Origin: a virus
Length of the DNA: 21,319 bases
IMG/VR virus record: IMGVR_UViG_3300001848_000862
Location: 1 to 21,319 of that record
Reading direction: 5' to 3' (one strand)
This document shows positions 8,349 to 21,319 of the stretch, piece after piece; the first letter of the stretch is position 1; every line of letters starts with the position of its first letter. A program made the translations under genes and the position numbers. Below the pieces are notes generated by a model. It was not told the origin of the DNA. It was given only the letters and a program-made list of their open reading frames with translations, and did no database searches.

Positions 8349-8795
8349 CTAAGGTAGGCTTACTGCGCCAGCCTCTTCTTGATCGCCACTTTCGTCAGAA
8401 ACTTTAAGTCCAACATAGCTAATACTAATACGGGTAGTAGCTCGTGCGCTTGGAGCTGAATTGTAGCTTGTAGGAATACATCCAATAGCAGTCATAATAA
8501 GTTCGCCACTTTGACGGTCTCTAATAGAGATAGTTACCGAACCAAGATTTAAAATATCTTGAAGTTTAGGAAATTTAGGCAAAGTGTGAACACCGTTGCC
8601 AACTACCCTAAAACCTGCACAGCTTATATTGACTGCTTCATAGCTTGTTGGGGTAATTTCGGCAGGACCAAAACGACCAAGAATATGAATAGGCTCTACA
8701 CCTATATTTGCACCATAGCTGCAGTTTTCAAAAACACCAACAACTTGGTTGTCTACGCTGATGACTGCCCGGCCACCGGTTAAGACTTTAGACAT
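8349..8795 (-). CDS. tail tube protein (148 aa)
   Basis: ATG at 8793-8795 with AAAGGAG upstream. Lies directly after the sheath gene, the usual sheath-tube order of contractile tails. Length fits the inner tube subunit. The sequence shows the tube pattern: an N-terminal GGRAVISVDNQVVGVFENCSYG, a central VEPIHILGRFGPAEITPTSYEAV, a strand with VTISIRDRQSG and a final strand with RISISYVGLKV. It should polymerise into the hollow tube through which DNA passes, surrounded by the sheath. The C-terminal tail (DESGDQEEAG) is acidic, which fits a charged lumen or surface. The family assignment rests on pattern and position, not on a search. Confidence 0.85.
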   Translation of the reverse strand: MSKVLTGGRAVISVDNQVVGVFENCSYGANIGVEPIHILGRFGPAEITPTSYEAVNISCAGFRVVGNGVHTLPKFPKLQDILNLGSVTISIRDRQSGELIMTAIGCIPTSYNSAPSARATTRISISYVGLKVSDESGDQEEAGAVSLP

Positions 8796-8814: not shown

Positions 8815-10965
8815 TTACTGGTTTGCTGCCGACTGAACTTGAGAAATGCTCAATTCAATTGGAATAAAGTAAATTGTGGTGCTTAGTTTGATTTCAAGGC
8901 TAACAGACATAGTTGGCCCTGAAATTGATACCTTAGCATTTCTATATCCAAGAGGCGCTTGATCGTCAGCAGTAATAGCTTTTACTCTGCGATATTCATC
9001 CATCTTGGAAGCAATAAATGCCAATGCTGTAGCGGAATCTACGTCTGCAAGCGATTGACCTACAAAAGCCCTCTGAAGAGCATCCGATAGATCAAGAGCT
9101 ACTATATCCGCCAAATAAACGGCTTGCATGCTATTGTATACAAAATTGGTATCAAAACCATAAGTAGTTTGATCAGAAACCCATTTAACGCCAGCAGTAT
9201 CATTTTGAAGAATAAGAAGCCCGCCAAGAAGAGCATCTTCTACATCTCCAGGGTTGCCGGAATCAAAACCTGAAGGATCCTCAAAGCTGATTATGTTAGC
9301 AAGCTTATTTGTGATTCCTTTATAAAATCCAGCAGCTTGCATACCAGCAGCTACGCAAGCTGCGTACCAAGGAAGATATTTTTGTATTACACCTTGGCTA
9401 TCAATTTGACTAACTTTTTGAAATGCCATGTTCATGCGGTAATTGGCTGCAATTTGAGCTTTAGCCTTAGAATTAGCATAACTTCCAAAATATGATAAGA
9501 CAGCTATACGATTACGTTTTAGCTTAGGGGTGCTCATCTTTAAGCAATGATTTTTTACTGCAGCGTGAATAGCATCAATAGTATATGTCGATAAAGAATC
9601 GGTAAGACCATCAGCAAGATCGCTGCTTGCATCTCTACTAAACAATGGAACAACAAAGTTTGCTTGCAATGCCTCTAAAGCAGCAAGAGCATCTACGATA
9701 TCAGCTGCAAGAGTAGCCCCCTTAGCTCCATTAGACAAAAATTCATAAGAAGACATTGGAGAAGGAAGGCCAGAAGAAGCTTGTTCAACCCACTCTACAG
9801 CAGAGCTATTAGCTATTGCATCTTCCCAATTTGACAAAGATCGCTTCACTCTACCCGGCATTAAGCTGGATCCACTTGAGCAAATTCCAATAGAGGATAC
9901 ATTATCAAGTTTGTTTGGATTAGATTGTTGAGAAGCAACAGGAACAGCTGCTGTGTATCCTGGTTTTGAAGAAATAAAATCAGCAAGATCCTTTAGAGTA
10001 GCATATGAAGACATATCAATGCTTAAAGCCGAACCAGATCCACCTACAACGACTGTTGATAGGCTATTGCCTGAAATAGTCATTGTTGCAGTAGTTCCAG
10101 CATATCCAATCTCTAAAGCAATATCTCCAGAAGCTTCTAAAGTTTCATTTAAACCAATATCGCTTCGAATAACGGACATCTCTACTGCAGACTCTGCACC
10201 AGAAATAGAAAGACCCTCAGCAAGACCTAAGGCTGCTAAATCCCCCAAATTAAGTTCAATAATTTCAAAACTTTTTGCCCAACCTTTGCGATAATTCGCA
10301 GGATCAGCAGAAAGAAAAAGCTTAAGAGAGTTTGCTGCTGTACCAGCAATAGCAGAAATACCTGCGGGAAGTTCAGAGTTAAGCTCAGTAATTAAATCGT
10401 TAATATTTCCATGATCTCCAGCAATTCCGCTCAAAGTAACAACGGCAGATGCACCGCCATTAATTCTAACCGCAAATGTCTTGTTGTTAAGAGCTGCACC
10501 AAAAGAAGAGATAGTAGAACCACTATAAGAAGGAGCTTCTTCTGCTTGACTAGCGATAATTTTATACTTAATTTTGTTACCTTCGACTCCAAAATTTTTA
10601 GCTTTTAAACTTCCATAGTCGGTATCTACAATAGCAGAAGCTTTTGTTCCAGAATTGGTTTTTAAAATTAAAATGTTTGTAGCAGAACCCACAATATTTG
10701 CATCTGCCGATGGAGAGCTAAGCGCTTGCATAGCATCTACAATAGGTCCAGAAACATACTTTTTAATAACTTTATCGGCTTGATCTGGAGAAAAAAAGTT
10801 GCTTTTTAGATCTTCATCTCCAAAAGCCGCTCCTCCAGCTGCTTCGCCTATAATAGCTACTACGCCTGTATTTCCTATTCCAACAGGAATAGATTTAACG
10901 CTAACGCTTGGATAAGCGCCAGGAATTACGGTGTTAATGAACGAAGTGGTCAGTCTCTGTGCCAT
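8815..10965 (-). CDS. contractile tail sheath protein (716 aa)
   Basis: ATG at 10963-10965 after AGGGAG. The N-terminus (FINTVIPGAYPSVSV, then GVVAIIGEA) is the classic sheath opening, where the chain wraps to the neighbouring subunit. The centre (about residues 110-390) is a variable, Ser/Ala/Gly-rich beta insertion. The conserved C-terminal part starts near residue 430 (AALEALQANFVVPLF, then KRNRIAVLSYFGS). It ends with the small alpha/beta domain (about 610-716: YLADIVALDLSDALQRAFVG, YRRVKAI, then SLEIKLSTTIYFIPIELSI). It is longer than the roughly 400-residue sheaths of small myophages, nearer to T4 or jumbo phage sheaths. It forms the outer cylinder whose contraction drives the tube into the host. 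Paired with the tube gene just downstream. Confidence 0.93.
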   Translation of the reverse strand: MAQRLTTSFINTVIPGAYPSVSVKSIPVGIGNTGVVAIIGEAAGGAAFGDEDLKSNFFSPDQADKVIKKYVSGPIVDAMQALSSPSADANIVGSATNILILKTNSGTKASAIVDTDYGSLKAKNFGVEGNKIKYKIIASQAEEAPSYSGSTISSFGAALNNKTFAVRINGGASAVVTLSGIAGDHGNINDLITELNSELPAGISAIAGTAANSLKLFLSADPANYRKGWAKSFEIIELNLGDLAALGLAEGLSISGAESAVEMSVIRSDIGLNETLEASGDIALEIGYAGTTATMTISGNSLSTVVVGGSGSALSIDMSSYATLKDLADFISSKPGYTAAVPVASQQSNPNKLDNVSSIGICSSGSSLMPGRVKRSLSNWEDAIANSSAVEWVEQASSGLPSPMSSYEFLSNGAKGATLAADIVDALAALEALQANFVVPLFSRDASSDLADGLTDSLSTYTIDAIHAAVKNHCLKMSTPKLKRNRIAVLSYFGSYANSKAKAQIAANYRMNMAFQKVSQIDSQGVIQKYLPWYAACVAAGMQAAGFYKGITNKLANIISFEDPSGFDSGNPGDVEDALLGGLLILQNDTAGVKWVSDQTTYGFDTNFVYNSMQAVYLADIVALDLSDALQRAFVGQSLADVDSATALAFIASKMDEYRRVKAITADDQAPLGYRNAKVSISGPTMSVSLEIKLSTTIYFIPIELSISQVQSAANQ

Positions 10966-10976
10966 TGCCTACTCCC

Positions 10977-11246
10977 TTATTTCCTCAATCCAAAATGTTC
11001 TATACCTTTTCCAAAAAGTTCTGGTTTATCACAACCGATGCTTTTTAGATGAGCCCAAAGTACATCTTCTAGCTCTTTAGGCCTATCATATTTTCGACGC
11101 TCCGAAGCCCACCAAGCGCAGAAAATCTCTTTTGCTTTATAATCACCATACCTACCCGTAGGGGTGGGTACTTGTCGAGACTCTTCAAGTTTCTCTTTGA
11201 TCTCAACTTCTCGCGGTTTATTGTCAGGGTTCTTTTTTCGACCCAT
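10977..11246 (-). CDS. hypothetical basic protein upstream of sheath (89 aa)
   Basis: I chose the ATG at 11244-11246 because it makes a TAATG overlap with the previous gene, as elsewhere in this cluster. An alternative ATG four codons upstream (11258) would give 93 aa and a 13-base overlap. The N-terminal third is basic and disordered-looking (MGRKKNPDNKPREVE). The rest holds an aromatic and charged segment, FCAWWASERRKYDRPKELED, and ends HFGLRK. No membrane segment. I do not recognise it. It lies just before the sheath gene, so a tail-assembly or completion role is possible but not shown. Confidence 0.65.
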   Translation of the reverse strand: MGRKKNPDNKPREVEIKEKLEESRQVPTPTGRYGDYKAKEIFCAWWASERRKYDRPKELEDVLWAHLKSIGCDKPELFGKGIEHFGLRK

Positions 11247-11674
11247 TACTTTTTCCATTTCTCAGGCTTTACACCAGCAGCTACGCATACAGCATGTGGA
11301 TCCTTAACGTCGGGGCTCTTTTCTTTTACTTTGCGAGTGCAACGATCGTGTTTTGATTCCTCTTCAGATTTTTTTAATCTTTTTTTGCTTTTATAATCTA
11401 TAAACTTATTAAGAGGTTTTTGATGCAAAGAAGACATATTAGGATGACCAAAATCTTTTTGCTTAGGAATTATTTTTTCTTGAGCTGTAGGGATTTTTTG
11501 GTGTGGAATCTTTAAGTCTGCCATCTCAGCTGCACTTTGGCTTTGAGGCGCGGCTTTTTTAAGAGTTTCTTCCTTAGCCTTGCTATTTTTTTCAAGGCGC
11601 TCTTTAGCCATCTGCTTAACTTTTTCAAGGACTCCAAGAGCCGCTTCTTTGGGCGTATATTCTTTCTTTTCCAC
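11246..11674 (-). CDS. Lys-rich protein with a C-terminal Cys-pair motif (142 aa)
   Basis: GTG start at 11672-11674 with AGGAG eight or so bases upstream. Residues 1-105 are highly charged, rich in Lys, Glu and Gln, and probably helical or disordered. The last about 35 residues form a compact motif: HDRCTRKVKEKSPDV, then DPHAVCVAAGVKPE. A similar Cys-x(about 17)-Cys pattern with an [AY]-x-V-C-x-A core occurs at the ends of various phage structural proteins, as I recall it; I cannot verify this here. Coupled by overlap to the 89-aa gene. The function is unknown; a virion-associated or assembly role is inferred from context. Confidence 0.65.
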   Translation of the reverse strand: MEKKEYTPKEAALGVLEKVKQMAKERLEKNSKAKEETLKKAAPQSQSAAEMADLKIPHQKIPTAQEKIIPKQKDFGHPNMSSLHQKPLNKFIDYKSKKRLKKSEEESKHDRCTRKVKEKSPDVKDPHAVCVAAGVKPEKWKK

Positions 11675-11736
11675 AGTTTCGTCTCCTAACGAACTAAAGA
11701 TTATTGTCCTTATTAAAATCCTTTAAAATCAAAAGC

Positions 11737-12435
11737 TTATTTTTTGTTCTTAGATGATTTTAAGATTCCTGTTGCCCCTAAAGTTTTATCTATTTCTTTT
11801 TTATGATCTTTAGACTTTCCAAAAGGATACCCAATTCTAGCATTAATCGTTTGGCCTCCTGGTGGAGAAGCTGAAGGCACTGAAGGTGGCGGTGGCGATG
11901 GGGGTAAAGGTGCGCTTGCAGCAGGCCCTCCCCCAAATGGGTACCCAATTTTAGCATTAATTGTACCGTCAGTTTTTGACATTTCACGCTTTTCGGACAT
12001 GCGAACCATAAATTTTTGAAGTGGCCGAGGCATTTTAGGTATTTTGTTTCCACCCTTAAAACCATCCGAAGGAGCCCCAGCTCCTGCTGGCGTTATAGGG
12101 GGGTGCAAATTAGAACTTGAAGCGGGCATTTTAGGCATTTTTATCTGTTTAGGTCGTTGCCCAAGTTTAGCTTCGGCATTAAGCTGTTTTTGGCTATGCA
12201 TTTCAGAGAGAGCTTGTTGATGTACATCTTTATTTAGTACTGACTCTGAAGCAGCTGGAATATGACTCTCAGGAAGTTTTTGATTTCCAGGAATCTTCAT
12301 GTTATGAACAGCATGCTCTAAAGCATGAGGCTTAGTTATAGAAACTTTTCCTTGCTGAAAAGCTTTCATGATTGCTTTGTGTAGAGCTTTTTTGATGTCA
12401 TCTCTCATAAAGTTAAGATTGCCTCTCTCACTCAT
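11737..12435 (-). CDS. low-complexity Pro/Lys-rich protein with repeated NA[KR]IGYPFG motif (232 aa)
   Basis: Start ATG at 12433-12435 overlaps the stop of the upstream gene by 8 bases (ATGAGTGA). An alternative ATG at codon 10 has GAGAGG upstream. A short helical N-terminus (MRDDIKKALHKAIMKAFQQG) is followed by a long disordered Pro/Lys/Ser stretch. Near the end, the motif INAKIGYPFGG and INARIGYPFGK occur twice, separated by a proline-rich linker (PLPPSPPPPS). Two copies of a short hydrophobic motif on a flexible chain look like docking peptides for a partner protein. No catalytic motif is seen. Possibly a scaffold, tape-like or assembly factor in the tail region. A downstream stretch of about 62 bases (11675-11736) holds nothing obvious. 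Confidence 0.65.
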   Translation of the reverse strand: MSERGNLNFMRDDIKKALHKAIMKAFQQGKVSITKPHALEHAVHNMKIPGNQKLPESHIPAASESVLNKDVHQQALSEMHSQKQLNAEAKLGQRPKQIKMPKMPASSSNLHPPITPAGAGAPSDGFKGGNKIPKMPRPLQKFMVRMSEKREMSKTDGTINAKIGYPFGGGPAASAPLPPSPPPPSVPSASPPGGQTINARIGYPFGKSKDHKKEIDKTLGATGILKSSKNKK

Positions 12436-13429
12436 CTACGGTTAGCCAAGGCTCATCTTCATCGTCTAAAAAAGATGGTGCATTTTGGCTTAAAATGCGT
12501 ATTCCCCCTTTAAAACCTTCATTTTCTAAATTTTCATTAAGATTATCAATTATTTGTACGTTTTCTATTACTCTACGGGGCGTTTTAAGCCAAGTGTTTT
12601 CTACTTGACCAGACAAAGTTATAAACCTAGAGTAAACGTTTTCTCCGCCAGGAACTCCCCAATCATTATTTGGCATCAAATCAGAACTTGATATAGAAGA
12701 TTCCGCAAAAGATCTAGCCTCAAGAAGTCCTTCTCTATATCTTAAAAGAATGTGAACTATAAATGCATGAAGCCACATCAAAATAGATGGATCCCCATGA
12801 ACATGACAACCTATATGATATGTTTCTCTAAAAAAACTATGCTCTCTTCGCACTCTATAAATTTGATATTTTGGAACAACAGCTAATCTGGATGCAGATA
12901 TCTGCATGCCTGCCTCTATAGCAATACCATTTTTGCCGCTTCTACCTAATACTACGTAACCTTGACCGTTATCTGGATTAACTAAAATCATATCTTTAGA
13001 CACAAGCGTGCTATTGATTTCATTTGGAAGAATCACTATACCAGTATCTTGGTCATAAGATATTGGAATAAACGGTTTTAATATATAAGGTATGGGTTTA
13101 CCAATTTTGTTTGGCATAAGTTCAATTACTTCTGAAGAAAGATCTCCCATACTTTTTTCTTCGATTATTTCGCTTGAGGATCCTAAGCCTATAGTGACAC
13201 ACGGAAGCTCATCTTTATCTCCAGGTCGACTTTGAAGATTAATTGATATTTTATTATTTGCAAGCCACTGTTTAGCTTTATCTATCTCTGATTGACCATA
13301 TTTTTTTTGTAAAGCAGGCTCATCAACCATTTGACTAAGAATATCATCAACAAGCCAAAGGTTTTTGCGCATATCATCTAAACCTTGTTCTATGGCTGTT
13401 TTTATTATAACATCACCAGAAAATATCAC
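12428..13429 (-). CDS. probable tail terminator / neck protein (333 aa)
   Basis: GTG start at 13427-13429 within a GTGA overlap with the previous gene, with AGAGG six bases upstream. The N-terminal half contains ELPCVTIGLGSSSE and a beta-rich part with DMILVNPDNGQGYVV and AVVPKYQIYRVRREHSF. The C-terminal half is marked by HIGCHVHGDPSILMWLHAFI, then LLRYREGLLEARSFAESS and GENVYSRFITLSGQVEN. This alternation of a beta core with one long amphipathic helix and a conserved Tyr-Ser-Arg strand resembles tail terminator or tail-completion proteins of myophages. The place between a gp10-like neck protein and the sheath agrees. It would cap the tube and join the tail to the head. The family is inferred; it could be another neck component. 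Confidence 0.6.
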   Translation of the reverse strand: MIFSGDVIIKTAIEQGLDDMRKNLWLVDDILSQMVDEPALQKKYGQSEIDKAKQWLANNKISINLQSRPGDKDELPCVTIGLGSSSEIIEEKSMGDLSSEVIELMPNKIGKPIPYILKPFIPISYDQDTGIVILPNEINSTLVSKDMILVNPDNGQGYVVLGRSGKNGIAIEAGMQISASRLAVVPKYQIYRVRREHSFFRETYHIGCHVHGDPSILMWLHAFIVHILLRYREGLLEARSFAESSISSSDLMPNNDWGVPGGENVYSRFITLSGQVENTWLKTPRRVIENVQIIDNLNENLENEGFKGGIRILSQNAPSFLDDEDEPWLTVDE

Positions 13430-14193
13430 TTAAACCTCTTTAAGATCTCAGGAAGAATTTCGTTTTCCCAAGCTTGGTTTGCCCATTCAAGCGCTTGTTC
13501 AAAAAATTTATCCCCTTCTCTACCAGGATGTATCCATTTATTTCCTTTATGTTTGCTACTTACCATCCTAAAGGTCATAATATCGCGACGAACTTTACCT
13601 TCAGCAGTCTGTGTTTGATATATTCTAAGGCCAGATAAAGCCTCATGACTAGCGCGTGCTGTAGGTTTTGGGCTAGTAATATCAAATTTGTGAAGCAAAC
13701 CTATTCGCGGACTTCCATCAGGATTATATTCAAGTTTTTTGAAGGGTATTTTAGCTCCTATACGAGAAGATTCATCTCTAAGTACTTGCTTTATTAAGCG
13801 CACCATTTCTTTTTGAAAGGCACCCTGTTGAGAAGGCGCCTTAGAGTGTTCAAACGGTATAGCTTTATATTTTGATCCATCTTTTGCTGTATGGGCATTA
13901 TTTTTTAATAGATCTTCAGTCATATCTCCAGACTTACGCCCTTCTTCAATCCACAAAGCAGGGGCATCCAAACTTACTACCCAAATACCAGGCTGAACTT
14001 CTTGAAAATCTAAATTATCCATATACATTTTTCTAGTAGTACTAAGTTTAGATGAAGCAAACTCTTTAACTTTAGCGTGCGTAGATGCCGCTAAAGCTTT
14101 AACGCCATCTTCTATAGCTTTTTTAGCTTCTTGCTTAAAGTTTTGAAGTTCGGCCACAATTGAGTCTGCATCTACTAAAAAGTTTAATCTCAC
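13426..14193 (-). CDS. HK97 gp10-like neck / tail-completion protein (255 aa)
   Basis: GTG start at 14191-14193 with AGAGG eight bases upstream. The N-terminal helix (about residues 8-50: ADSIVAELQNFKQEAKKAIE, then VKALAASTHAKVKEF) is typical of gp10-like neck proteins. The middle holds DAPALWIEEGRKSGDMTEDLL. The C-terminal strand-loop-helix (about 206-255) has FRMVSSKHKGNKWIHPGREG followed by FFEQALEWANQAW, the conserved finish of the family. This protein would sit at the head-tail junction and complete the tail attachment. It is longer than the usual 120-170 aa, with an insertion around 105-190. It is one base downstream of the -1 frame stop discussed at 14195..14428. Confidence 0.7.
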   Translation of the reverse strand: MRLNFLVDADSIVAELQNFKQEAKKAIEDGVKALAASTHAKVKEFASSKLSTTRKMYMDNLDFQEVQPGIWVVSLDAPALWIEEGRKSGDMTEDLLKNNAHTAKDGSKYKAIPFEHSKAPSQQGAFQKEMVRLIKQVLRDESSRIGAKIPFKKLEYNPDGSPRIGLLHKFDITSPKPTARASHEALSGLRIYQTQTAEGKVRRDIMTFRMVSSKHKGNKWIHPGREGDKFFEQALEWANQAWENEILPEILKRFK

Positions 14194-14194
14194 C

Positions 14195-14428
14195 TTAATA
14201 CCTCTTATGGGTAATATCGCCTTTTAAATCTAAAGCAACAGGCTTTTTTACGTCTATATACTTAACCTTACCTGTTTGATTATCAATTTCTTTCATTTCA
14301 CCTCTGTAATTTATAGCATGCTCTGGAATTTGAGGTTTAGTTATATGTTTAGTTGTTTCTTTGGCCGGTAACCTGCTTTTGGCTACAGGCCCTGAGGCTT
14401 TGGGGCATTGGGCACCTCCGAGCGCCTG
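14195..14428 (-). CDS. candidate -1 frame C-terminal extension of the cyclase-palm protein (77 codons)
   Basis: Reading in the -1 frame from the slippery heptamer gives 77 sense codons and a TAA at 14195-14197, one base before the GTG of the next gene. The codon use (AAA, GAA, GAT, AAT, ATA) resembles that of neighbouring genes. The peptide starts QALGGAQCPKASGPVAKSR, passes KPQIPEHAINYRGEM and ends VKKPVALDLKGDITHKRY. The frame has no ATG, GTG or TTG in the first 44 codons. Its first start codon is an ATG with GAGG just upstream (14295-14297), which would give only a 33-aa gene. If joined by frameshift, the product is 454 + 77 = 531 aa. Alternatives are a free 33-aa peptide, a sequencing error or a recent frameshift mutation. 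Confidence 0.5.
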   Translation of the reverse strand, partial: QALGGAQCPKASGPVAKSRLPAKETTKHITKPQIPEHAINYRGEMKEIDNQTGKVKYIDVKKPVALDLKGDITHKRY

Positions 14429-15789
14429 TTTTTTTCTTCAGATCCTTCCATATGACGAGCAAGTTCTATTGTTTGTTTTAGAAGACCTATAATTGAATCG
14501 TACAAATCAGGATTACTTCTTTTCATGGAAACAATTATGTCTTTATTTTGTTTAAATTTTTTTAGTATTATTTTTATTTTATTTTTAGTATCATCATGCG
14601 ATTGAGATTCAGATAACAAAGAAGATAGCAGATTAAGTTCGGAAGGCCCTTCATAATCATCTGACGAAGTTTCAGGGTATTTTTGATCTAAAGATTCTTT
14701 TGATGTATCCACCATTGAATCATCTGTATTTTGAAAATTTTCTTGATCATCACTAAAAGCTTTTTGATCAAAATTTTGTTCTTCTTCGCCTGTATCATTG
14801 GATAAGTCATCTTTTTCTGGTTCTTTTATTTGATCAATTAAAGAATCTTTCATATTTGGCACTTGATCATCGAGTTCTGGTATATGATCATCATCATCAT
14901 GATCTTCTTCAGAAGATCCAGTCATCAAAGCATCTACTTGATTTTCTGGTTTTTGCTCAAGCTCATTATCTTTGGAAGCCTGCTCCATAGAGGTTGGGGT
15001 TTCTTCTTCTTCTTCTTCTTCGTGCTCCATATTAGAGCTTTCTGGTATATCTAATGGCTGCTCTTCATTTTGTTTTTCACCTTCAAGATCTTCTCCTTGA
15101 AGATCTAACCCTTGTTGCGCTGGTAAAGATTCTTCAGAAGCATCGGCATAAGTTTGCCCCGTACATAAAGGACAATTGCAACCAGTTTTTTCTTCATCTT
15201 CTGAGCTAGACTCAACTTCTTCTGGCATTCTTTCTTCTGGCATTCTTTCTTCTGGCATTCTTTCTTCTGGCATTTCTTCTTCGATGTCATTGTAATTATC
15301 TCCTTCTTGGTATTCGTTTTTATCGTCCATAACATGGCTAAGATAGTGCTCATCTATCTTTTGGGCTTCTTTGCCTCCTGCACCAGACATTGCCTCAGAA
15401 TGAGCTTGAGAAAGTATTTGCTCTATATGATCATCATAGTTTATGATCATATTTTTTCCACTAAGCTTTCCTGCCATAAGAGATTTGCCCGCTTGACTTA
15501 AAGAGAGGCCGGTACCTATAGTTACAGTAAAACCTGTAACGTTTTCATACATCTTTTTAAGCTCTAAAAGCTGTTGATGTTTAGAGGGATCAATAAAAAA
15601 AGTTGCTTCATCGCCACCTTCCGATATTACGGTACCACCATTAGCTGATACCCAATCGCGAACAGTTTGCCCGCCCTGCTTAATTTTAGTTGAAATAGTA
15701 TTTAATAATTGAGCATCATCTTTAAGAACAGCAGCTCCAACTTGTTGTCCAGCATTGTCGCCGTCTATAGCCACGTAAAGCTTGTTCAT
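14383..15789 (-). CDS. GGDEF/mCpol-like nucleotidyl-cyclase palm domain with acidic tail (468 aa)
   Basis: ATG at 15787-15789, in a 4-base ATGA overlap with the 304-aa gene and after AGGAGC. Residues 1-113 form a palm domain: YVAIDGDNAG (D9 and D11), a helix, then SEGGDEATFF (GGDE at 58-61) and a strand-helix region with VTIGTGLSLSQAG and LMAGKLSGKN. The metal-binding Asp positions and the final G-K-N fit the GGDEF / Cas10 / mCpol / GTP cyclohydrolase III superfamily. After a helix (114-150) comes a long acidic, disordered chain with four MPEER repeats (about 173-191), a CNCPLC cluster (204-209), a run of seven Glu, and a basic helix (about 410-450). The acidic tail looks like that of a scaffold or core protein. 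Activity and product are unknown. It could be catalytic, a nucleotide binder or a structural reuse of the fold. Confidence 0.75.
   Translation of the reverse strand: MNKLYVAIDGDNAGQQVGAAVLKDDAQLLNTISTKIKQGGQTVRDWVSANGGTVISEGGDEATFFIDPSKHQQLLELKKMYENVTGFTVTIGTGLSLSQAGKSLMAGKLSGKNMIINYDDHIEQILSQAHSEAMSGAGGKEAQKIDEHYLSHVMDDKNEYQEGDNYNDIEEEMPEERMPEERMPEERMPEEVESSSEDEEKTGCNCPLCTGQTYADASEESLPAQQGLDLQGEDLEGEKQNEEQPLDIPESSNMEHEEEEEEETPTSMEQASKDNELEQKPENQVDALMTGSSEEDHDDDDHIPELDDQVPNMKDSLIDQIKEPEKDDLSNDTGEEEQNFDQKAFSDDQENFQNTDDSMVDTSKESLDQKYPETSSDDYEGPSELNLLSSLLSESQSHDDTKNKIKIILKKFKQNKDIIVSMKRSNPDLYDSIIGLLKQTIELARHMEGSEEKNRRSEVPNAPKPQGL
14428..14434 (-). promoter_or_regulatory. candidate -1 ribosomal frameshift site A AAA AAC
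   Basis: In the zero frame of the 468-aa gene the bases read GAA-AAA-AAC (codons 452-454), giving the X XXY YYZ heptamer A AAA AAC. A Shine-Dalgarno-like GGAAGGA ends 8 bases upstream, as at bacterial frameshift sites such as dnaX. A 5-bp stem (GGCGC / GUGCC, 6-base loop) lies one base downstream, and a longer GGCC-bounded region follows. The -1 frame is closed by TGA just upstream and open for 77 codons afterwards. Confidence 0.5.
15217..15276 (-). repeat. 15-bp tandem repeat (4 copies) encoding MPEER
   Basis: The plus-strand unit TTCTTCTGGCATTCT recurs with a 15-base period (GGCATT at 15224, 15239, 15254 and 15269). It encodes an in-frame acidic pentapeptide in the disordered tail of the palm-domain protein. 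Copy number can change by slippage without breaking the frame. Confidence 0.9.
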
Positions 15790-16700
15790 ACTTTGCTCCT
15801 ATTTTTAGATCTTAACGTTTCTAGTAACATCTGAATGTTTTCTGCATCCCAACTTTTTGGAAATCTCATAGAAAACCCATCTTCAGTTTTTTTAATATAT
15901 ATTTTATTGTCTCTATCGTCTCCAAAACACACACATCCAGAATAAACACCTTTCATAAATATATTTTTTTTGCAATCAGGACAAGTAATTTTTTCATTTT
16001 TATTAAGAACTACATGAAATTCTGGTCGTTTTCTTTTGTTTTCTTTTTTATCAAGAAAGTTTTTTAATTTTGGTTCTTTTTTAATAGTAATAGGCTTTTG
16101 GTCTTTATTATTTTCTTCTTGTTTTATGGGCAAACTAGCTTCAGTTATAGCTTGAGTCAATTTGCTTCTTATGATTTGATCTAAAGCTTCTCTTTCTGAT
16201 ATTCGTTGATCTACAACTTGACGAACAAGATGGTGCAAACCAATTCTTTCATCTATAATTGCTTGTATTTTGGATATATCAGGAGTAAGTTGTGGTATTG
16301 GCATAGAAGCTAATGATTCCATATCATAAAGCTCAAAAGTTGACATTATAACTAATCCAACTCCCGGAAGACTTCTATTAGCAAATTTTGCTATAATCTT
16401 GCCATTTTGGTATATATTCCCAGTATAAACATCGTTTGACATCTTTGTAACTTGAAGAGTAGCTTCTGGAAACACTGGCAACTTTAAATCTTTACCTTCA
16501 TTAGGTTTCATGGAAGCAAGCTCTTTTTGAAGCAATGATAGAACAGTTCTAGGAACTATTTGCAAAGCTGTGCGAACTTCTTCTGGATCAAGAACAGTGT
16601 TTGTTTGCAGCTTGTATAGCTCAAATTTGCGAAGCTCTTCTAGGCAATCGCTACCTAAAGTTTTTGCTAAAAAATGCTCTGCATGCTCCGTAAGCTTCAT
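15786..16700 (-). CDS. hypothetical protein with C-terminal four-Cys cluster (304 aa)
   Basis: ATG at 16698-16700. No clear ribosome site is present; the gene starts two bases after the previous stop, so coupled translation is likely. Residues 1-135 are a mixed alpha/beta domain (PRTVLSLLQKELA, then GNIYQNGKIIAKFANRSLPG and LVIMSTFELYDME). Residues 140-185 are helical and 190-225 are very basic (KKENKRKRP). The end (about 237-285) has C240-x2-C243 and C256-x-C258, with TCPDCKKNIF and SGCVCFGDDRDNK, then a strand with FSMRFPKSWDAENIQ, which could form a zinc-stabilised module. I do not recognise the family. Overlap with the palm-domain gene and a cysteine cluster in both proteins hint that they work together. 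Confidence 0.65.
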   Translation of the reverse strand: MKLTEHAEHFLAKTLGSDCLEELRKFELYKLQTNTVLDPEEVRTALQIVPRTVLSLLQKELASMKPNEGKDLKLPVFPEATLQVTKMSNDVYTGNIYQNGKIIAKFANRSLPGVGLVIMSTFELYDMESLASMPIPQLTPDISKIQAIIDERIGLHHLVRQVVDQRISEREALDQIIRSKLTQAITEASLPIKQEENNKDQKPITIKKEPKLKNFLDKKENKRKRPEFHVVLNKNEKITCPDCKKNIFMKGVYSGCVCFGDDRDNKIYIKKTEDGFSMRFPKSWDAENIQMLLETLRSKNRSKV

Positions 16701-16702
16701 AG

Positions 16703-17155
16703 TTATGCTTTTGTAATTTCTTCGTTGATGATTTTTGTATCATCTATTTCTAAATATATGATTAGATTGCTGCTATCGGCTACTATATAGCGCTTATCAT
16801 AATTTGAAAGATACGTCCAATCATTAGGCTTACATACTATACCTACATCTCCTGTAGGAGCATCGACAGCACCAGGCAAAAGTGCAGCTGCCAATAAATC
16901 ATTAGAAAACCTAACAGACCCTACACTGCCACTATCATTGTATATTGCTAAATTTGATCCTAATTTTAGAGAGCGAATAGAAGAAGCATCTGTGGTTAGT
17001 CCTCCTGTTCCATCATTTATCGGAGCAAGAGCCGGACCTACTCTAACGCTTTTTCTTGCACCAGCTTGTTCGTTATAAGTTAAATCGGTTATAGAACCTG
17101 TATCTTGAACTTTAGATCCTTTTTTGACACGAATATTCTTATTTGGAAATTGCAT
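16703..17155 (-). CDS. hypothetical virion-region protein (150 aa)
   Basis: ATG at 17153-17155 with AAAGAGG upstream. A short basic start (MQFPNKNIRVKKGSKVQD) leads into a beta-rich region with repeated Gly-Ser strands (SSIRSLKLGSNLAIYNDSGS, then VGSVRFSNDLLAAALLPGAV). It ends with a strand pair and acidic tail (YIVADSSNLIIYLEIDD). No cysteine cluster or membrane helix; one Cys. I do not recognise it. Position between a probable structural protein and the palm-domain cluster suggests a small head or neck component such as a decoration protein, which is inference only. Confidence 0.6.
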   Translation of the reverse strand: MQFPNKNIRVKKGSKVQDTGSITDLTYNEQAGARKSVRVGPALAPINDGTGGLTTDASSIRSLKLGSNLAIYNDSGSVGSVRFSNDLLAAALLPGAVDAPTGDVGIVCKPNDWTYLSNYDKRYIVADSSNLIIYLEIDDTKIINEEITKA

Positions 17156-17180
17156 ATATCTACCTCTTTATCCTTTTATA

Positions 17181-18101
17181 TCAAGATTCCTGCTCAATGT
17201 TTGTCATGTTAACGTGAACGACAGTCCCGTTTGGATCTTCATTTATTGATGGCTGAGAAACAGTTCTCTTTGGATCTTCAGGGGTTAGCTCAGTACGTTT
17301 GCCTGCATTTACTTGGTTTTGATATATATACTCTCTTTGTACAACAGCATGATAAGCCATTCTTTCAGGTACCCTTTTGTCACCTTCTGTAATATTAGTC
17401 AATCGAACTTCTTTAGGAATAGCTATTATATACCAAAAGGCTTTATAAAGGTATCGAATAGAGTAAACTCGCCCAGTACTCGTTTCAGGGTTTATACCTG
17501 GATTATTTCCTCCAGCTACCCATTTGATGTTGCCCTCGCAAACTTCAAAATCTTGACCTTCTTTATATGATATTCCCCGACTATCTACTACTGTTTCTAT
17601 TTTTACTATAGGAAACATTGGTCTATTTTCTTCAGATTCTTTGTATTCCATCCTTTGATAGTTTGGAACCAAATCGTCAGCATCTTTATCTGCTAAGTAA
17701 ACTCTATCTCCTGGAGCAAGATATATCCTATCCCCGTTAGCTACTTCTTCTGCTTTATTGTAAAATCTAGGCATGATCAAGCGAGAAGTAGAATAGTCAA
17801 GAACACCACCGTCAGAACGTTTTTGACTTTTAGAGTTATCTACCATGGTTGCAGTGAAGCATCCAGATTTAGTATAGATCATTCCATTAGAGCTAATAAC
17901 GTCAAGTTCTCCATCAGAACGCCTATAATCTCCACGATCGTTCATGCCAATTGGAGAAGGCATTGCTTTATAATGAACAAAATCTACTCCTAAGGATGTA
18001 ACAAAAGCGTCTTGTTTTCCTAAATCAAATGATACTTGAAACGGTGAAGCCGCAGGGGATATAGCGTCTAGCTGTGTACCCTTTGGATTTCTGTCAGACA
18101 T
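17181..18101 (-). CDS. probable virion structural protein (306 aa)
   Basis: ATG directly after the TAG of the 121-aa gene, with GGAGAG upstream. The sequence has the look of a conserved phage structural protein: SPFQVSFDLGKQDAFVTSLG, then FVHYKAMPSPIG and RGDYRRSDG near residues 44-64. A strand-rich middle holds SSNGMIYTKSGCFTATMVDN and RIYLAPGDRVYLAD. A C-terminal part has GRVYSIRYLYKAFWYIIAIP and ERMAYHAVVQREY (about 210-262). I recall similar proteins near neck and head genes of large myophages, without being able to name one. An RGD tripeptide is present but probably not meaningful. Likely a head-tail junction or portal-proximal component. Confidence 0.6.
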   Translation of the reverse strand: MSDRNPKGTQLDAISPAASPFQVSFDLGKQDAFVTSLGVDFVHYKAMPSPIGMNDRGDYRRSDGELDVISSNGMIYTKSGCFTATMVDNSKSQKRSDGGVLDYSTSRLIMPRFYNKAEEVANGDRIYLAPGDRVYLADKDADDLVPNYQRMEYKESEENRPMFPIVKIETVVDSRGISYKEGQDFEVCEGNIKWVAGGNNPGINPETSTGRVYSIRYLYKAFWYIIAIPKEVRLTNITEGDKRVPERMAYHAVVQREYIYQNQVNAGKRTELTPEDPKRTVSQPSINEDPNGTVVHVNMTNIEQES

Positions 18102-19085: not shown

Positions 19086-21319
19086 TTACCTTGATGGAGT
19101 GGCGTTAGTAACAAATAGCGCCAAGCCCCCAAGAGCATTTTTTCCCATTCTATGCTCTTCAGAGACCGGCTGAGCATGATAAAGAGCCACCACGTTTGTT
19201 AGCCCGTAGGGATGCGCTGAGTTGTAGAAGCCGTGATACCCAGCCTTCTTTAGTCTAGCGTGCACCATGTCCATATTGAGAGCGCCATTATTTTCAGCTA
19301 CTGCTGCCTCTATATGCTTCTCTGGATCAGTTCCTAGGTCATATAACTTAGCGTGGTCTGGAAGGTCTATAACATACCGACTACGAGCCCTGTTAGATAC
19401 AATGTGCTCGGGCTCCGTACCGGCAATGTAGAAGAAGGAGTGCGGGTGCTCAGTGTCTCGACCCTTAACGCCCGCGTCTACGCCGCGCCCCTTGAATTTG
19501 GGGTCAATCTGCTTGAGGCCCTCCTCGGTGGAGTAGTGCTCGAGCTTCTTGGACTTGCCGAACGACCTGTCGCGCTGGGCCCACAGTTTTTTCGCATCCT
19601 GAGACTGGGAGGTGGACGGCACTACCTTCATACCGGTGTGCTTCTGAGCCAACCTGTATGCCTCCGAAGCCAGCCCTTTTCTTTCGTGTCCCTTGTTCGT
19701 CTGGGCAAAAACAGGATAGATGGTACCGGGAGAGTCCTTGGTAAAATGATACTTCCCAGCAACTTTTCCGGAAGGATGAGTGGCGATCACGGTAGTTATG
19801 TCAGATTGGGTCATGGGATTTCTAACGTCTTGGATCTTGAAGGTGTATCCTTCCTTCTCCCAGTCGCCACCAGCGCCCTTCTCAAGCTCGCCCTTGTTAA
19901 ACTGCTTGGTCCACTTGTCGACCTGCTCGTCCGCCTTTTTGGAGCGAAGCTCCATCACCCGGCGGTCGCCGTCCTCGGCGCTGATCTCGGTCCCGGTATC
20001 GGGGTTGTGCCAGTTATCGCCCTGGAGGCGCTGAAGCTGGGCAAGGGTCATGTTCTTGTGAGGTTGCTTTGCGTACTTGGTCGAGAAGCGCTTCTTGGGC
20101 ACAAGACTTTTTATTATTTCTGATGCAGCAAGTTTTTTTGGCATCTTTGAAATAAGGCGTCTGCGAGCTTCTTTGCTGTGACCTCTTCCTCGTAAGTTGA
20201 TCAAAGCATTTACATCAGAAACCTTTTGCCAACCTTTTTTGGGATCAAACTTAAGCGAACCTTCCTTGATTTGGGTCATACGCTCGCGCGTCTCTGGATT
20301 CTGAAGATGGCTGGAGCGGTCATACAGGGCTTCCTGACCCTTAATATCTTTAGCGCGATGGAACCGAGGCTCCCTGGTATCCCAAGTAAGTTCAACATTT
20401 TTTTCTGGATCTATCTCTAATGCTGGAAGCCCTTTAGCTCGTCTTTTTGTGTTAAAATCTTTCAACTTTTTGGCGGACATCTGAGTCTTTTTGGCCTTGT
20501 TAGCAGGAAGGCCAAGCATTCGTCTGATCTGATTTTCCACGGACATCGGCTGAACTTCCCAAGAGGTGCGCTTGCCTTGAGCATGACCGTAATCCTGTCC
20601 ATGGCGCCCATACGCTGCGTCCATCTGTTCTTGAAATTCTTGCGCGGTGGTTTCCTCAGGCGCCAGGTTTAGATGCGCAAGCTCGTGCACGGCGGCGTCG
20701 GGCGACGGCTGGGTCTCCAAGACGTCGCTGTGCCAGTGCGGCTTGGGGTCTGTGCGGGTCTCCCCGCGCTCCTTGACTTGGGCAAGGCGTTCCTTTTCGG
20801 CGGCGACGCCCTGGCGGCTGAACACGTCATATGGCTCGTGGGCGAGGTCGGGCTTCTCGCGCAGCCTGCCCTGCTCGTCGCGCTTGCCCTGGGCGGTCTG
20901 GAGGTCCATGCCGTACTGTTTGCCAGCATAGTCTCGGATGCGCTGCATCATCTTGATGCGCTTGTCGGACAGGCGCGAAGGCTGGGGATTTTTGCCAAAA
21001 ACTTTAGCCCGCTGTTCTCGCACGTTTTTGGACTTTTTGATGTATTCTTTAAGCTCGGAAGACTGCTCTTTTGCTTCCTCTTTGAGCTTCTCTTTGGTAG
21101 GATGCTTGAGTGTGCTGACCAGGCGCCTGTGCTCGCGCACGGCCTGCTCCTTGGGCATGCAGATCTCTTTCTTCAAGAGATTCTTTGCATAATTCTCAGA
21201 AGCCGCAAGCGGCTCTCCTTGCCCAAACTTTTGCTGAATTAGTCCTTTTACGTCAGGGTGAACGTTCGGGTTATCAGCTAAGTTTTCAAGCACGAATCTG
21301 CTTGTCTTTGGGTGGTTTA
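19086..21319 (-). CDS. polyvalent protein: zincin motif, GNAT-like and ADP-ribosyltransferase-like domains (5' partial)
   Basis: The frame is open to the right edge, with codons before the GTG at 21291-21293, so the true start probably lies outside; numbering below counts from that GTG. Residues 60-130 are charged helical. HELAH at 203-207 is the HExxH signature of zinc metallopeptidases. Residues about 250-440 are a linker with many Lys/Arg. Residues about 470-580 resemble a GNAT acetyltransferase, with VIATHPSGKVAGKYHF and the acetyl-CoA loop RKGLAS (from R538), then STSQSQDAKKLWAQRDRSFG. Residues about 584-722 resemble the polyvalent-type ADP-ribosyltransferase: LEHYSTEEGLKQIDP, HSFFYIAGTEPEHIV, GYHGFYNSAHPYGLTNVV. 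Polyvalent proteins are thought to be carried in the virion and act early in the host. Activities are inferred from motifs. GC content varies strongly along the gene. Confidence 0.75.
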   Translation of the reverse strand, partial: NHPKTSRFVLENLADNPNVHPDVKGLIQQKFGQGEPLAASENYAKNLLKKEICMPKEQAVREHRRLVSTLKHPTKEKLKEEAKEQSSELKEYIKKSKNVREQRAKVFGKNPQPSRLSDKRIKMMQRIRDYAGKQYGMDLQTAQGKRDEQGRLREKPDLAHEPYDVFSRQGVAAEKERLAQVKERGETRTDPKPHWHSDVLETQPSPDAAVHELAHLNLAPEETTAQEFQEQMDAAYGRHGQDYGHAQGKRTSWEVQPMSVENQIRRMLGLPANKAKKTQMSAKKLKDFNTKRRAKGLPALEIDPEKNVELTWDTREPRFHRAKDIKGQEALYDRSSHLQNPETRERMTQIKEGSLKFDPKKGWQKVSDVNALINLRGRGHSKEARRRLISKMPKKLAASEIIKSLVPKKRFSTKYAKQPHKNMTLAQLQRLQGDNWHNPDTGTEISAEDGDRRVMELRSKKADEQVDKWTKQFNKGELEKGAGGDWEKEGYTFKIQDVRNPMTQSDITTVIATHPSGKVAGKYHFTKDSPGTIYPVFAQTNKGHERKGLASEAYRLAQKHTGMKVVPSTSQSQDAKKLWAQRDRSFGKSKKLEHYSTEEGLKQIDPKFKGRGVDAGVKGRDTEHPHSFFYIAGTEPEHIVSNRARSRYVIDLPDHAKLYDLGTDPEKHIEAAVAENNGALNMDMVHARLKKAGYHGFYNSAHPYGLTNVVALYHAQPVSEEHRMGKNALGGLALFVTNATPSR

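Follow-up and report, generated by a model that had tools for sequence, protein, structure and literature searches.

An mCpol-type cyclase domain in the virion operon of large phages related to Myxococcus phage Mx1

Introduction

Why a large phage should encode, among the genes for its virion, a protein carrying the palm domain of a nucleotidyl cyclase is the question raised by a stretch of viral DNA of 21,319 nucleotides (positions 1 to 21,319 of IMG/VR record IMGVR_UViG_3300001848_000862), referred to here in its full length as the window. A preliminary description of the window had proposed a cyclase palm of the GGDEF/Cas10/mCpol superfamily, encoded in a structural operon next to neck genes and fused to a scaffold-like acidic tail. 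Descriptions of the minimal CRISPR polymerase (mCpol) have so far placed the domain in bacteria and archaea. No published report of a phage mCpol was found in a literature search, most subscription papers and preprints lying outside its coverage, and the main text of the two 2025 papers on Panoptes (PMC12657218, PMC12657230) contains no mention of phage-encoded or prophage mCpol.

Assignment of the domain to mCpol

The 468-residue window protein, whose N terminus reads MNKLYVAIDGDNAG, contains the three motifs on which the earlier proposal was founded, YVAIDGDN (residues 5-12), GGDE (58-61) and LSGKN (109-113), with D9, D11 and D60 intact; its gene lies on the minus strand, which the preliminary description had left unstated (Table 1). 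The ATG shares four bases (ATGA) with the stop of the upstream gene, and an AGGAG is found just 5' of it, within that gene.

Table 1. Coordinates of the mCpol-bearing ORF, its parts and neighboring genes in the window
Feature	Position	Strand	Description or basis
mCpol-bearing ORF	14383..15789	minus	468 aa, ATG start; mCpol, acidic tail and C-terminal helical module
mCpol (minimal CRISPR polymerase) domain	15436..15777	minus	residues 5-118; D9, D11, S33, G58-G59-D60-E61, K108, K112
Acidic low-complexity tail	14590..15387	minus	29% D/E, pI 4.1; MPEER-type repeats
CNCPLC cysteine motif, single, within acidic tail	15163-15180	minus	sequence
Conserved C-terminal helical module	14452..14586	minus	residues 402-446
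Virion structural protein	17181..18101	minus	phrog_1004, E 1.1e-5; DUF4815 weak, E 0.0015, below cut-off
150-aa operon gene, function not assigned	16703..17155	minus	synteny
Zn-ribbon gene, 304 aa, CPDC...CVC	15786..16700	minus	upstream, constant mCpol neighbor; family alignment, beside mCpol in all new loci
Putative head-tail joining (neck) protein	13426..14193	minus	phrog_16819 (function not assigned), E 5.5e-16; position and synteny
SP10-terminator-like protein	12428..13429	minus	Pfam E 4e-6, 26.7 bits vs cut-off 27; phrog_1000, E 3e-8
Tail sheath	8815..10965	minus	42% identical to annotated Mx1 sheath over 88% of query
Probable tail tube protein	8349..8795	minus	directly after sheath, as in Mx1

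Profile searches bear out the palm assignment and narrow it to a single family. The Pfam mCpol model (PF18182) matches the protein over its full length, positions 1-114 of 114, with an E-value of 8.1e-18 and 65.3 bits (cut-off 26.4), and the NCBIfam mCpol model (NF033576) matches with 1.3e-14 and 54.8 bits (cut-off 40). The sole matches in a sequence search of the PDB are 9nwn (1.1e-10) and 9mnr (6.6e-10), both mCpol/OptS, and PADLOC returns CARF_HEPN_mCpol (PDLC01967, E 2.7e-7). Pfam yields no GGDEF (PF00990) match in the protein, the Cas10 palm profile reaches 22.7 bits, under its cut-off of 27, with other Cas10 domains absent, and PHROGs is without any family for the mCpol domain.

Structure prediction leads to the same family. 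An AlphaFold (AF2) model of the domain, built with an alignment of 20 family members, has a pLDDT of 96.8 and a pTM of 0.89, and the top six Foldseek matches to it in the PDB are all mCpol/OptS structures (best E 5e-10; TM 0.78-0.80 on the query and 0.87-0.90 on the target); GTP cyclohydrolase III, GGDEF and Cas10 rank next. The best match is mCpol and not TOPRIM, the unrelated fold that the preliminary description had raised as an example. In a phylogenetic tree whose exact root is unsure because the branches are long, the phage proteins and stand-alone bacterial mCpols are split from the Cas10 palms with support of 100/100, and the phage proteins, including that of Mx1, form a single group (89/89). 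Judged by sequence, predicted fold and tree, the window domain is mCpol proper, neither GGDEF nor Cas10.

Carrier phages and operon context

Profile searches of IMG/VR, in which the E-values for related loci are relative to the candidates, gathered 36 phage contigs with one mCpol protein each, all at the same virion-operon site; near-identical groups among the 36 are L034/L035, L119-L121, L125/L126 and L138-L140. Except for Mx1, all loci are on metagenomic contigs. The carriers are phages of about 170 kb related to the virulent myovirus Mx1: the most complete records measure 155-171 kb and Myxococcus phage Mx1 169.6 kb, with genes for capsid, portal, terminase, sheath, DNA polymerase III alpha, a RecA-like protein and GroEL common to these records and Mx1. 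Mx1-like phages are virulent myoviruses of T4-like appearance (PMC6070905); the carriers are probably virulent. The Mx1 record also holds, at 119182-127421 and 55548-58564, genes annotated as NAMPT and NMN adenylyltransferase (NAD rebuilding), macro-domain, SLOG and TROVE proteins. Together these resemble counter-defence, and a NAMPT homologue occurs in the related record G011 too.

A tblastn search of INPHARED gave only matches of E 2 for the window domain and none for KpOptS, and one family member retrieved Mx1 alone; a scan of genome contigs with the phage profile, by a strict pattern method, returned no bacterial or prophage relatives. The best viral match in a BFVD fold search (E 3.6e-10, TM 0.88) is A0A6J5L1I5, an uncharacterised protein of an uncultured Caudovirales phage with no assigned name or function. 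By its predicted structure this protein is probably an unrecognised member of the family, members of which would therefore sit nameless in databases.

In all newly found loci the gene order is DUF4815-like structural gene, 150-aa gene, Zn-ribbon gene, mCpol, phrog_16819, SP10-terminator-like gene and sheath, the sheath being seen where the stretch reaches it and the match is strong enough, and the L139 stretch beginning at the Zn-ribbon gene. In most loci the start of mCpol and the Zn-ribbon stop overlap by 4 or 8 bases. Promoter and terminator scans gave results at shuffle level. This conserved order, together with the likeness of the sheath to that of Mx1, confirms the structural operon; the neighboring neck genes are plausible by position only, as the downstream neighbor matches a PHROG family to which no function is assigned.

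Several other features of the region deserve mention. The Zn-ribbon protein was modelled as a possible nucleotide receptor; the model (pLDDT 67) has no PDB match, and scattered Acb4 matches with E-values of 0.6 or worse are noise. In L007 an ORF for an HNH-type homing endonuclease (644-1162) lies exactly between the Zn-ribbon and mCpol genes, and the two genes of L018 lie some 500 bases apart (between 9059 and 9566), perhaps owing to an insert as well. The interval from the neck-region genes to the sheath encodes strongly charged, probably disordered proteins (11246-12435 of the window, 13730-14236 of L003), the same site being so occupied in relatives. Farther away, a 735-aa ORF on the minus strand (19086-21293) is ADP-ribosyltransferase-like by eye in its C-terminal part, with no Pfam match; its GC content is 51-54%, against 34-43% elsewhere in the window, its positional counterpart is L003:4452-5498, and it may be a chimera or have been imported recently.

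Active site and selection

Twelve residues, D9, D11, G14, S33, G52, D60, G92, G94, L104, K108, G111 and K112, are identical in all 36 phage proteins, a count to be read with the fact that part of the search patterns demanded D9/D11 and partly GKSL and so pre-selected those residues. Because of this, the count unbiased for D9/D11 is that of a search with the Zn-ribbon gene, which found 19 contigs: 16 with an intact mCpol, two without the domain, and one cut at the contig end. The GGDE motif itself varies among the 36, with G59 replaced by S in seven and E61 by Q (GGDQ) in nine.

The conserved positions can be read against characterized enzymes. D9 and D60 align with the catalytic D6 and D57 of KpOptS, which hold metals and whose Asn mutants lose cyclic dinucleotide synthesis (PMC12657218), and S33 aligns with the adenine-selecting S30 of the KpOptS and ECOR31 enzymes. 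That serine favors ATP, its replacement in S30N moves the product toward cGAMP, and the position varies across other mCpols. Since S33 is invariant in the phage proteins, use of ATP is predicted. KpOptS makes its second base contact through N34, a position that is not conserved and is K37 in the window protein, so that the product could differ.

In ten protein pairs, dN was lower in the mCpol domain than in the tail in every case. The values for the domain range from 0.03 to 0.27; dS is saturated or exceeds 0.7 in nine pairs, and the tenth pair is near-identical, a pattern of strong purifying selection on the domain. From these comparisons the phage mCpol is likely to be catalytically active.

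Modularity of the protein

All 39 family proteins have the C-terminal helical module. They include that of Mx1 and those of two phages, L023 (170.6 kb) and L026, which carry the CxxC/acidic tail and C-terminal module in the protein encoded next after the Zn-ribbon gene; mCpol is missing from that protein and from the rest of both records. The Mx1 orthologue keeps the domain (E 6e-19 against the family profile) and S33, with substitutions D9 to S, D60 to A, K108 to Q and K112 to G, and with LGA in place of GGD. Tail and module being constant while mCpol is absent in two phages and inactivated in Mx1, the cyclase is a separable and optional enzymatic addition, intact wherever present apart from Mx1, which argues against a purely structural role.

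The tail is indeed acidic, as first described, and its scaffold-like nature finds no such agreement. The site where a scaffold gene usually lies, immediately upstream of the gene for the major capsid protein, is taken in three complete relatives (G002, G008 and G011) by a homologue of Mx1 orf326, so that the head scaffold reading was set aside, and the two phages described above have the tail without mCpol. The tails of L006 (4359-5675), L007 (1113-3011) and L030 (10935-12803) contain up to six DDCxYC-type cysteine pairs, compared with a single CxxC pair in the window protein, and these multiple pairs suggest metal binding.

Possible functions

The domain, its fold, the conserved catalytic and base-selecting residues, the selection on it, its operon position and its modularity are well supported; from them we infer catalysis and product, a virion location and an immune target. 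The reading preferred here, to which a probability of roughly 45% is given, is that of an ATP-using cyclase, carried on a virion-operon protein, that would make an adenine-containing cyclic dinucleotide and disturb nucleotide-sensing immunity of the host. The acidic tail and helical module would be the part engaged in particle assembly, and the N-terminal mCpol would dimerise and be active without a trigger, as is OptS; mCpol in Panoptes is constitutively active and needs no added stimulus. The product would most likely be 2',3'-c-di-AMP or a close relative. Presumably made late with the structural proteins, the enzyme may be packaged and delivered with the DNA, and its signal in the infected cell might, for example, hold Panoptes-type effectors inhibited or occupy receptors. 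The parts of this proposal differ in strength: chances appear evenly balanced that the protein is virion-associated, and interference with host immunity is a tentative suggestion, its odds somewhat short of even. Unless it is packaged, a protein from a late structural operon acts late, a timing that fits poorly with a block of early immunity.

An active cyclase could instead serve the phage itself or host physiology, with a signal for the timing of lysis or assembly or for c-di-nucleotide homeostasis. The conserved catalytic residues, the invariant site in an assembly operon and the lack of a known immune partner in the phages are all in keeping with this, as is the recurrence of cyclases in the region, Mx1 having a separate GGDEF cyclase there; but the domain is missing in two phages and its residues are lost in Mx1, for which an accessory function fits better than a core step of assembly, and this explanation is rather unlikely. 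Slightly less probable still is a palm that has no catalytic role and acts by nucleotide binding or dimerisation only, organising the head-tail joint. Because Mx1 keeps the fold, and the position in the operon, without D9, D60, K108 and K112, such a role is possible at least in that phage. In the other 36 members, however, the metal- and phosphate-binding positions are kept, S33 included, and L023 and L026 do without the domain, which is hence not structurally essential.

Since an anti-phage system has mCpol as its synthase (PMC12657218, PMC12657230), the phage protein could also be half of a Panoptes-like system that the phage carries against its competitors, in superinfection exclusion. Cap15-type effectors (PF18153, the OptE S-2TMbeta type) were found in none of 18 phage records by a search that does detect OptE beside OptS in Rahnella, and SAVED (the SAVED-2TM alternative) was not found in the 18 either, in a search run without a positive control. 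The neighbors of the phage gene are, moreover, virion genes. With no Cap15-type effector in the 18 records, the family was rejected as a Panoptes system; superinfection exclusion is highly improbable.

In the preferred reading, an immune-directed cyclase, 2',3'-c-di-AMP made by a phage would protect against Panoptes once phage sponges strip the host signal, as this compound restrains OptE (PMC12657218, PMC12657230). It is conceivable, if a long shot, that large virulent phages package or late-express a captured immune cyclase and flood the cell with an inhibitory cyclic dinucleotide, keeping Panoptes-type tripwire effectors off as other proteins of the phage soak up CBASS signals; such a counter-defence would work by making rather than destroying a signal. 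The natural deletions in L023 and L026 and the inactivated Mx1 copy provide ready-made comparisons for the question of OptE protection. More broadly, a conserved and apparently active mCpol in a virion operon suggests that phages themselves make cyclic dinucleotides of the immune type, whereas the known sponges and phosphodiesterases remove such signals.

Comparison with known systems

Among related enzymes, Cas10 palms share with the phage domain the palm fold and the GGD(E/D) motif (Foldseek E about 1e-4) and differ in their sub-cut-off Pfam score and their place outside the mCpol clade. The CARF-HEPN-mCpol proteins (PDLC01967) have the mCpol domain in common with the window protein, in which neither CARF nor HEPN was detected. 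Phage GGDEF diguanylate cyclases, such as WNM70324.1 of Mx1, belong to the same cyclase superfamily and are also phage-encoded, with mCpol constituting a different family. The Mx1 enzyme (L040:3174-3905; Mx1 record 17173-17904; Pfam E 1.3e-9) is encoded between the prohead protease and major capsid genes, has no relative among other INPHARED phages, and has no GGDEF counterpart in the 23 related records searched besides Mx1.

The closest likeness is to the OptS/mCpol enzymes of Panoptes (KpOptS, 9MNR and 9PD0; ECOR31, 9NWN), with which the phage mCpols share about 28% identity, the fold, the catalytic pair of aspartates, the adenine-selecting serine and the conserved lysines. Unlike the Panoptes synthase, the phage gene has no adjoining OptE-type effector, and the phage proteins retain GGD(E/Q) where KpOptS has AAD. 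The phage mCpol is encoded in the virion operon of large phages and is fused to an acidic tail and a helical module.
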